Positions 6,403 to 37,513 of a DNA stretch of 37,702 nucleotides are shown one piece after another. Where the stretch lies: positions 3,856,792 through 3,894,493 of the forward strand of contig NC_006370.1 in NCBI RefSeq assembly GCF_000196255.1, given 5' to 3'. Position numbers and translations under genes: made by a program. This stretch comes from Photobacterium profundum SS9 (GTDB lineage: Bacteria > Pseudomonadota > Gammaproteobacteria > Enterobacterales > Vibrionaceae). Each line of letters opens with the position of its first letter. Position 1 is the first letter of the stretch. The notes below the pieces were generated by a model. It was not told where the DNA came from. It searched no databases and was given only the letters and a program-made list of their open reading frames with translations.

Positions 6403-6698
6403 TTATATATACCCAGAGATTTTCTTGATTGAAGCAGGCCTCTTAGTAAGCAATTCACCGTGAACGCTAACGTGGCAAACTTTAAGCTCCAACAACAACG
6501 ACTGAAGCTGTGCTGGAATGGGCCGTACTATTTTATCACCCGTCTTATACCATTCTAGGTAAGTAGTTGATCATAATGTTGCGCAGGAAAAATCGCTTAT
6601 AACTAGGCGTGAATTGCAGATAACTAGTGGCTCTAATTACAAAATTCATAACGATGTTATAAGTTATTTTAACCAGCAATAATGATCATATATTTAAC
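6403..6698. other. Gene-poor stretch between fis and the insertion sequence
   Basis: No gene with a start codon and ribosome-binding site is seen here. On the minus strand an open frame of about 55 codons ends at a TAA (6403-6405); it lacks a good start and follows a TGA. Its translation (for example EWYKTGDKIVRPIPAQL) looks protein-like, so it may be the C-terminal remnant of a lost gene, but I cannot name it. Confidence 0.4.
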
Positions 6699-6713
6699 TA
6701 GAATAATGGTATG

Positions 6714-6782
6714 GACCCTCTCCCCCCAATCGGCTTCAAATGAGCCATATTGAAGTTGATGTTCAATAGCGAAGAGAGGGTC
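6714..6782 (+). promoter_or_regulatory. Inverted repeat that can mask the transposase ribosome-binding site
   Basis: GACCCTCTC (6714-6722) inside the left terminal repeat is the exact complement of GAGAGGGTC (6774-6782), which contains the transposase Shine-Dalgarno sequence just before the ATG at 6785. A transcript entering from outside would carry both arms and could hide the start site. Confidence 0.6.
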
Positions 6783-6784
6783 AC

Positions 6785-7801
6785 ATGAATAGTTTAACGA
6801 TTGGTTTAGATACTGCAAAGTCTGTCTTTCATGCCGTTGAAAAAAACAGTAGAGGGCGTGTACTGAGCAAAGCCAAACTAACACGAGCTAAGTTATTTAC
6901 TTATTTTGCGAATAAACCACCCTGTACAGTTGCTTTAGAAGCTTGCGGAGCCAGCCATTATTGGTGTCGAGTAATCTCAGCCTATGGTCATAAGGCTGTC
7001 ATGATTGCTCCCCAGTATGTTGCAAGTCATCGTAAAGGCAATAAAAATGATTTTAACGACGCGAATGCTATTGCGGATGTTGCCCAGCGGGATGATATAA
7101 GGACAGTTCCGTACAAAAGTATTGAACAGCAAGATATTCAATTACTGCATAGAGTAAGGGAACGGCTTGTAAGGCAGAGAACAGCTTTAGGTAATCAGAC
7201 TCGAGGATTATTATCAGAATATGGCATTGTTCTTCGCCAAGGGTTAGCCCATCTTCGCAAAGAATTACCGTTTATTCTGGAAGAGAGTAATAATGAGCTT
7301 ACTGAGTTAGCCCGCCGCCAGTTCTTTTTATTACATGAAGAGCTCCTTGTTTTAGATGAGAAGGTAAAGCAAGCCGATAATGAAATACAGCGAGTTGCAC
7401 TTTCACACCCTATATCACAGCGGTTAATGACAATGTCAGGTGTTGGACCGATTATCTCTACAATACTTTTGGTTGCGCTAGGTAAAGGTGAGCACTTCCG
7501 AAATGGTCGCCACTTTTCCGCTTGGTGTGGTTTAGTTCCTAAGCAACATTCTACCGGAGATAAGGCGCGTTTATTAGGGATAAGTAAGCGAGGTAATACT
7601 TACATTCGAACTCAATTGATCAATGGCGCTAGAAGTGCATTGAGAAATGCGAGTAATAAAAATGATCAAGTTAGCCGTTGGGCAGCGAGCCTGGCAGAGC
7701 GAATAGGTTTTAACAAAGCCTGTGTTGCTTTGGCGAATAAAATGGCAAGATTCGCTTGGGCGATGGTACATAATGGACAAGATTATCAGCTAAAACCTTA
7801 A
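6785..7801 (+). CDS. IS110-family (IS1111-type) DEDD transposase/recombinase
   Basis: The enzyme excises and inserts the element through a circular intermediate, guided by an element-encoded RNA in characterised relatives. The 338-residue protein has an N-terminal RuvC-like DEDD domain (candidate acidic residues Asp9 in GLDTAK, Glu52 in LEACG, and Asp89/Asp92 in KNDFNDANA). A coiled central region follows, then the Transposase_20 domain (MSGVGPIISTILL, then FSAWCGLVPKQHSTG), where the family keeps its catalytic serine. IEQQDIQLLHRVRERLV is typical of the IS1111 group. GAGAGGG precedes the ATG. No frameshift or stop interrupts it. Confidence 0.95.
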   Translation: MNSLTIGLDTAKSVFHAVEKNSRGRVLSKAKLTRAKLFTYFANKPPCTVALEACGASHYWCRVISAYGHKAVMIAPQYVASHRKGNKNDFNDANAIADVAQRDDIRTVPYKSIEQQDIQLLHRVRERLVRQRTALGNQTRGLLSEYGIVLRQGLAHLRKELPFILEESNNELTELARRQFFLLHEELLVLDEKVKQADNEIQRVALSHPISQRLMTMSGVGPIISTILLVALGKGEHFRNGRHFSAWCGLVPKQHSTGDKARLLGISKRGNTYIRTQLINGARSALRNASNKNDQVSRWAASLAERIGFNKACVALANKMARFAWAMVHNGQDYQLKP

Positions 7802-7879
7802 CCCACATAATGTAAGTTAAGGCTAAATACATCCACCCACTGAATTGCACAAGACATGATATTGATGATTAAAGGCTCA

Positions 7880-8030
7880 TAACCACCTTATAAAACTCAG
7901 GTAATACCAAAGGCTGTAAGGCCGTTAGAATGATATGAAGATAAGGTGCGAAATCCATCAGGGCTAGAGAATTCACATTCTCAACTAAGCCGAATATATG
8001 GCAGCAAACGAGTTTCATTAATCTTCATCA
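7880..8030 (+). ncRNA. Candidate bridge/seeker RNA of the insertion sequence
   Basis: Two guide-bearing internal loops can be drawn in the 3' non-coding end. Target loop: closing stem CACCTTAT (7884-7891) with ATAAGGTG (7941-7948). Its 5' side carries GTAATACC (7901-7908), complementary to the right flank GGTATTAC (8063-8070). Its 3' side carries TAGAATGAT (7926-7934), matching the left flank TAGAATAAT (6699-6707) with one change that still permits a G-T pair. Donor loop: TCCAT (7954-7958) complements the left element end ATGGA, and ATATATGG (7994-8001) equals the right end (8057-8064). Between them is a hairpin made of GGCT/AGCC and GAGAAT/ATTCTC. Exact RNA ends are not known. Confidence 0.7.
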
Positions 8031-8065
8031 TTATGCCTTGCAATGCGAGAGGGTCCATATATGGT

Positions 8066-8247
8066 ATTACTATGGCTTTTAGGCACAGTCCAAACACCTT
8101 GCTCAAAATTCCATTCAGCCCATGTAGACAGACGCACCTTCTGTGAACAGGCTCCAAAGAACTAAAATTAACCTCTAGCTCAGGCAAACCAGATTCGGAG
8201 GTGGATAGATAAATCACGAAAATCAAAGCTAGTCTGACATCGCCATT
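8066..8247. other. Non-coding stretch between the insertion sequence and a minus-strand operon
   Basis: No convincing gene. A minus-strand open frame crosses the right insertion-sequence edge but starts only at TTG or GTG without a ribosome-binding site. It may be the 3' untranslated region of the 8248-9005 operon; no clear terminator is seen. Confidence 0.4.
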
Positions 8248-32199: not shown

Positions 32200-32230
32200 A
32201 AAAAGGCCGGAGGCAATTCAGCCTCCAGCC
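32200..32230 (-). terminator. Attenuator between rplL and rpoB
   Basis: On the minus strand GGCTGGAGGC and GCCTCCGGCC (32221-32230 and 32205-32214) form a 10-pair stem with one G-U, followed by five T residues. It lies just after rplL, where E. coli has the partial terminator that sets the ribosomal-protein to polymerase ratio. Confidence 0.85.
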
Positions 32231-32264
32231 ATTAGCCTTTTCAGGCTAAGAAATTAAGTAATAA

Positions 32265-37140: not shown

Positions 37141-37217
37141 TGGTGCTAATAGGCGGAGTCTAACCGTCGACCTCACCCCTTACCAAGGGTGCGCTCTACC
37201 AACTGAACTATATCAGC
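37141..37217 (-). pseudogene. Degenerate tRNA-Thr (anticodon GGT)
   Basis: The sequence matches the thrT-type tRNA in the usual place before tuf, with encoded CCA and anticodon loop TTGGTAA. It has several defects. The 3' side of the anticodon stem is GGGGTG against CACCC, one base too many, making the gene 77 nt. The T-loop reads TTAGACT, losing the nearly universal C56. The T-stem has an A-C mismatch, and D-stem and acceptor stem each have a G-T pair. The combination suggests a pseudogene; low residual activity cannot be excluded. Confidence 0.75.
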
Positions 37218-37229
37218 GCACAAGAAGTA

Positions 37230-37304
<75 letters not shown>

Positions 37305-37343
37305 AAAACTCATCACTCGAAGAGCGGTCAAACTACTTGAAAA

Positions 37344-37428
<85 letters not shown>

Positions 37429-37447
37429 AGGGGTATTACAAAAATAC

Positions 37448-37513
<66 letters not shown>

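Follow-up and report, generated by a model that had tools for sequence, protein, structure and literature searches.

The seekRNA of IS1111-group insertion sequences is an RNA of about 70–160 nt that is bound by the transposase. A DEDD transposase, downstream non-coding DNA and a subterminal inverted repeat (sTIR) are published marks of the group, as is the C-terminal transposase motif GL-P----S(t)G (PMC11187229). RNA-guided targeting, its natural and experimental reprogramming, donor loops and the right-end RNAs of IS1111 elements have already been published (PMC11187229, PMC11208160) and landing in attC sites and REPs is likewise known (PMC11187229). ISEc11, ISKpn4, ISPst6 and ISPa11 carry a downstream non-coding region and 7 + 3 bp extensions outside the sTIR, and their top-strand (T) guide match lies 5' of the bottom-strand (B) match; in ISEc11 the two target matches overlap (PMC11187229). 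The element described here has the same arrangement, including the overlap, but its target and guide letters are different and it is known from sequence alone. IS4321/IS5075 are reported to insert into the terminal inverted repeat of another transposon (via PMC11187229) and so does our element, although the repeat is that of the Tn21 family in the former and one common to an IS630-type element and related MITEs in the latter. Like our element, the IS1111 of Coxiella inserts repeatedly into a MITE, there QMITE2 (PMC5896051, also covered by PMC10969869), but at a GTAG REP within the MITE (PMC5896051) and not at the tip. The bridge RNA of IS621 has target and donor internal loops with two guide strands each around a core, as does the RNA below, whereas in IS110 elements the RNA mostly lies at the left end and its bottom-strand guide precedes the other (PMC11208160); here it is at the right end with the top-strand guide first.

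The element was found in a 37,702-nt stretch of the Photobacterium profundum SS9 genome (NC_006370.1, positions 3,856,792 to 3,894,493), referred to as the window; coordinates are those of the window and all features of the element lie on its forward strand. It spans 1358 bp (6704–8061) and contains a transposase gene (6785–7801) of 338 aa, within the range of roughly 330–350 aa given for the group, with an N-terminal DEDD/RuvC and a C-terminal Transposase_20 domain (Pfam PF01548, DEDD_Tnp_IS110, and PF02371, Transposase_20, both over cut-off). The NCBIfam model NF033542, 'IS110 family RNA-guided transposase', matched at 333 bits against a cut-off of 140 (E 1.5e-99), and two further NCBIfam models, one of them TIGR-Tas, matched far under their own cut-offs. 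IS621 and ISCro4 are its relatives of solved structure by sequence (PDB), and the translation contains GLVPKQHSTG, a fit to the IS1111-group motif. The sTIR is perfect over 12 bp (ATGGACCCTCTC at 6711–6722 and GAGAGGGTCCAT at 8047–8058), 11–13 bp being usual in the group. Outside it lie a 7-bp left extension, TAATGGT (6704–6710), and a 3-bp right extension, ATA (8059–8061), in the same frame as in relatives and without target duplication. The 245 nt between the transposase gene and the right sTIR (7802–8046) form the longer downstream non-coding region of the group. With its RNA at the right end and a 12-bp sTIR the element falls outside the IS110 group proper (IS621-like), in which the RNA is at the left end and the sTIR short or missing. 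We are close to certain that it is an IS1111-group insertion sequence with a seekRNA/bridge RNA and the guides named below. The sequence-only reading had proposed just such an IS1111-type element, encoding a bridge/seeker RNA at its 3' end with target and donor loops and site-specifying guides, a proposal borne out by Pfam, by the target swaps and by the leave-out covariance model.

The ends were fixed with the help of empty copies of the repeats in which the element lands. The window's copy sits in a MITE of about 165 bp, the left part of which occupies 6545–6703 and whose left tip (6545–6557; minus strand TAGAATGGTATAA) is an exact empty copy of the target. A query with the MITE flank returned at least 42 matches in the element's own genome, which was searched as three contigs totalling 6,403,280 bases (40 of 110 candidates scored). 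The tips of the MITE are also those of an IS630-type element of about 1.1 kb with two reading frames (HTH and DDE_3 domains). Empty copies of these repeats read TAGAA/TGGTATWA (the slash marks the junction) and are free of the AAT found at the occupied site. The genome contains TAGAATGGTATWA in 36 exact copies, of which 24 form 12 pairs spaced 1103–1105 bp. At up to one mismatch the count is 119 vs 24 for a backward control. Intact IS630-type ends at fetched loci read agatagcctcaattagatcatatatttaacTAGAATGGTATAA, and the occupied ones (L003 and L004) are the same through TAGAA and then continue TAATGGTATGGACC. MITE tips were inspected at 30 fetched loci, the window's own among them. The right tip was without AAT at all 29 loci besides that of the window (TAGAWTGGTAT, TAGGATGGTAT, TTAGGTTGGTAT or close variants), as was the left tip at 27 of 28 readable loci, the sole exception, L038, being a MITE occupied by copy L005. 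Because these empty MITE and IS630-type tips lack AAT, the empty site is TAGAA/TGGTATWA and the element 6704–8061, with junctions A/T at 6703/6704 and 8061/8062; the extra AAT is then, on this sequence comparison, part of the element's left end. The uninterrupted MITE at the window locus is predicted to read TAGAATGGTATTAC. No empty allele of the locus itself was found among 52 genomes of the genus, which gave only the element's own genome and one 67-base match (76%). A reading with 6 + 3 extensions (element 6706–8060) fits one copy and fails on the empty repeats.

Relatives place the core at the first base of the right target half. The comparison covered 35 elements, the window's included, whose sTIR matches at 10 or more of its 12 positions; many of these elements are closely related to one another. 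They were drawn from 48 relative loci among the matches listed (L063–L110), of which L081 was dropped as an own copy, L076 was left out at 9/12 and 12 had no sTIR by the rule. In 35/35 elements the left extension begins with the letter found at base +1 of the right flank (T in 17, G in 17, C in one) whereas base -1 is common to target and element end in 5/34, so that the core lies at base +1, here T, and not in GGT.

The search of the own genome yielded 16 matching stretches, including eight intact reading frames of the transposase, and reading of the junctions resolved these into 12 distinct insertion sites: eight two-sided (L001–L007 and L010/L011, a broken copy), L008, of which just the left end could be read, and L009, L012 and L013, each with just a right end. 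At 8/8 two-sided sites the flanks join to NAGAW/TGGTATWA, so the comparison of guides and flanks among other copies, which had been suggested as a check, turned up one and the same target. The left target half is TAGAA at six of the eight, including the window (6699–6703), and AAGAA and CAGAT at the remaining two; the right half in the window is TGGTATTAC (8062–8070). The B guide TAGAATG matches six of these sites at 7/7 letters, one at 6/7 and one at 5/7, and the T guide matches the same eight at 7 to 10 of 10. At the one-sided sites the B guide scores 5/7 (L008) and the T guide 8, 9 and 8 of 10 (L009, L012 and L013, respectively). In L007 (2846–2889; G000:C2 about 1882046–1882090) the right end carries a tandem duplication of 23 bp, which places two right subterminal repeats in tandem ahead of the target half.

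A common flank could also arise if the copies had spread mainly together with a MITE or IS630 element, by hitch-hiking or duplication, in which case it would reflect shared ancestry instead of repeated choice. L002, L003 and L004 indeed have at least 35 bp of left flank in common, L003 and L004 over 1.1 kb, and the latter two flank one IS630-type copy, one on each side. However, right flanks differ beyond the target at all eight two-sided sites, the left flanks of L001, L005 and L010 belong to separate MITE copies lying in either orientation, and those of L007 and L008 match no other copy's flank, the sole match of L007 being its own second entry, L015. We regard spread by hitch-hiking as very improbable and repeated choice of the target as the reading to follow. 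This target is, as judged from these genome matches, the terminal repeat of the IS630-type element and its MITE relatives.

The modelled part of the predicted RNA covers 7860–8003. A covariance model built from 17 relatives, with the window and its two nearest relatives (L082 and L083) left out, matched the window at 76.4 bits (E 7.5e-17, by a rough calibration), its sole match there at E values up to 10. In a search of 41 sources, the same model matched nine other loci of the own genome at 76.4–76.8 bits, L083 at 61.6, L082 at 60.2 and the truncated L013 at 36.3. The target loop is closed by an outer stem of CACCTTAT (7884–7891) with ATAAGGTG (7941–7948), the perfect 8-bp stem reported earlier from the letters, and relatives replace it by other complementary pairs. 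Across 13 elements its arms score 96 when paired with their own partner vs a mean of 59.5 and a maximum of 79 after shuffling (0/20,000). Covariation is weaker in two inner hairpins and a long-range closing helix, where 216, 8 and 96 of 20,000 shuffles did as well. For a structure of 16 pairs drawn by eye over the 17 relatives, 73.3% of cells are paired vs a shuffled mean of 59.5% (0/500) and the covariation score is 0.368 vs 0.170 (0/500); 11 pairs are changed on both sides vs 9.1 on shuffling, a count reached by 59/500 shuffles. The fold of the single sequence 7840–8015 is no more stable than that of shuffles (z 0.05; 102/200 at least as stable) and Rfam at gathering scores gave no match at the RNA region. 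RNAalifold on the 17 relatives missed the outer stem; it had the donor guide pair with a conserved stretch, GATG, instead. This GATG (7864–7867), 5' of the outer stem, is kept by 15 of the 17 relatives and could pair with CATCA of the donor guide.

Within the target loop, the T guide GGTAATACCA (7900–7909) is the complement of TGGTATTACC, target positions +1 to +10, and matches at 9/10 in the window; the B guide TAGAATG (7926–7932) equals target positions -5 to +2. The two target matches overlap at TG with the T match 5' of the B match, the order of IS1111 seekRNAs. On the corrected target the guide pair scores 16/17 letters, with guide lengths chosen after the match was seen, vs a mean of 11.3 and a maximum of 15 over 4000 random window sites. 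Targets were also swapped among 12 elements, namely that of the window and 11 relatives, hand-picked to represent different targets; an alignment of 20 elements made blind to the targets fixed the columns, and own and swapped targets alike were allowed a shift of -1 to +1. T guides matched their own targets at 91/108 letters (shuffled mean 52.1, maximum 78) and B guides at 77/96 (mean 47.1, maximum 68), neither value being reached in 20,000 shuffles. With rigid columns the values were 66/108 for T (mean 38.5) and 77/96 for B (mean 42.6), again 0/20,000 each. When a guide pair was instead searched for freely in the non-coding DNA of each element, L076 and L090 being left out, the outcome was mixed, and the fixed-column swap is the cleaner version. 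The own target exceeded all 300 letter shuffles in 14/34 elements, the window included, and every other element's target in 6/34, many having a common target; L063, L066, L068, L095, L100 and L107 did no better than about one third or more of the shuffles. Two groups of relatives, L084–L089 and L090–L110 minus L092 and L096–L098, carry corresponding guides to targets TTAAGG/TGTGAGCAACGC and TAAC/GCC. These two targets appear to be two positions in integron attC sites.

The swaps bear on the possibility that the transposase picks its target via palindrome or repeat structure, the RNA matches being relics or by-products. In favour of such recognition of structure are the nature of the targets, which are other elements' tips, and the link drawn earlier between the family and REPs and attC sites (PMC11187229). 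Relatives with different targets nevertheless have correspondingly different guides in the same columns, two relatives in other species combine a changed B guide with a changed MITE tip, and published members require the RNA (PMC11187229). Choice by structure is thus also given very little weight compared with choice by the RNA guides.

In the second loop the donor T guide TCCATCA (7954–7960) reads the left extension, at 5/7 in the window copy, and the donor B guide ATATATG (7994–8000) corresponds to the right end ATATA followed by the target core TG, at 6/7 against the element's own joined ends. In the same alignment, relatives hold a near-complement of their own left extension in the column of TCCATCA, and their own right end plus core in that of ATATATG. 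Over the 12 swap-test elements donor T scored 67/84 (mean 58.1; 18/20,000) and donor B 82/84 with the target core (mean 73.9; 169/20,000) or 77/84 with the element's own core (mean 69.0; 142/20,000). Both guides hence covary with the ends, as a loop pairing with joined ends should. The signal is weaker than that of the target loop because element ends vary little.

Several strings singled out in the sequence-only reading reappear in this arrangement, in part with another role. GTAATACC (7901–7908) is the complement of 8063–8070 and ATATATGG (7994–8001) equals 8057–8064, both as described. TAGAATGAT (7926–7934) does resemble 6699–6707, although the G-T wobble assumed there disappears, G7932 being an ordinary match in the corrected site. 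TCCAT (7954–7958) complements 6711–6715 at 5/5, but homologues use a donor register other than the one drawn from it. The same reading placed the junctions within GGT (6708–6710 and 8063–8065), with abutting guides and TAGAATAATGGTATTAC as the original target, which one copy by itself permits, given the real string matches and the direct repeat of 7 bp, ATGGTAT, that the two junctions share; we give it next to no credence, since the empty repeats lack AAT, TAATGG is constant at the left end despite differing flanks (CAGAT in L010, AAGAA in L007, ACGAA in L008), relatives' own left ends include extensions such as TAATGG, TGATGA and GAATGA, and a wobble at G7932 is required where the corrected site has a plain match. 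Empty copies, which are repeats elsewhere in the genome and not alleles of this locus, read TAGAATGGTATWA and put the junctions elsewhere than GGT, the guides overlap at TG and the core falls at base +1. CTAGAATNATGGTATWA was found at up to two mismatches in 16 places of the own genome, six of them occupied left ends and ten with a mismatch inside the site. Ends inferred from a single copy can therefore be several bases off, while, once empty repeats are brought in, sequence suffices to read where an uncharacterised RNA-guided element ends, where its core lies and what its target and guides are.

What the genomes establish at the level of sequence, namely the family, the ends, the empty repeats, the repeated choice of target and the covariation of guides with targets and of the stem, is compatible with the following mechanism, in which transcript, circle, RNP assembly and exchange are modelled on published members. 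A seekRNA/bridge RNA would be made from the 3' non-coding region of this site-specific IS1111-group element. In its first internal loop the T guide (7900–7909) would pair with the top strand of TAGAA/TGGTATTAC and the B guide (7926–7932) with the bottom strand. The second loop would pair with the element ends as joined in the excised circle, for which GAGAGGGTCCATATA/TAATGGTATGGACCCTCTC is predicted, with a circle junction ATA/TAATGGT in the context ...GGGTCCATATA/TAATGGTATGGACCC... Strand exchange by the transposase would then take place at the shared base +1. The element would land at transposon tips because its target is the IS630-type/MITE terminal repeat.

The two nearest relatives (L082 and L083, 66–67% identity), each from another genome within the family, lie in MITE tips as well. 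In their genomes GATTGGTATWA occurs 120 and 71 times vs 6 and 4 times for the control, and TTTAGTACGATTGGTATWA or ACTTAGTGTGATTGGTATWA is the sequence of most tips at the loci fetched. The T guides of the two relatives depart from that of the window in one letter of nine, whereas their B guides end CCGATTG and TCGATTG vs TAGAATG in the window, matching their own targets imperfectly at 5 and 6 of 8. The half-guide that faces the diverged part of the tip thus differs and the other half hardly does. That the B guide follows the diverged MITE tip is suggested by these two elements; such a difference between species may be a natural example of a guide that keeps up with a changing target. We tentatively propose, with doubt slightly the stronger side, an IS1111 lineage that has become a specialist for tips within a single IS630/MITE superfamily, its half-guide for TGGTATWA being fixed and the other tracking the variable tip across host species. 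If true, the element would be a tracking hyperparasite of another transposon family. The RNA-guided system itself is known, and the specialisation on IS630/MITE tips is the fresh part; a literature search, with most subscription papers outside its coverage, had no title on an IS1111 element targeting IS630 ends among those listed. Natural guide-target pairs within one clade should also be useful for design rules of programmable IS1111 recombinases. Relatives were present in at least 5000 plasmid records, all of the 5000 counted being below 60% identity.

The last 20 bp of the window's MITE ahead of the element (6684–6703) equal the IS630-type end and are unlike the right tips at the 29 other MITE loci, which suggests local conversion or a distinct subfamily. 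At L118, around position 1228 (G000:C2 about 3742927), an IS630-type tip abuts the seekRNA remnant L013 within the T guide (TAGAATGGTATAA and then TACCAAAGGCTG); here the insertion of the prey element may have hit the guide of its own parasite. Elsewhere in the window, Rfam placed a P26 sRNA (RF00630, 54 bits) at 32204–32261 on the minus strand, presumably between genes resembling rplL and rpoB, and four tRNA genes lie at 37144–37512.
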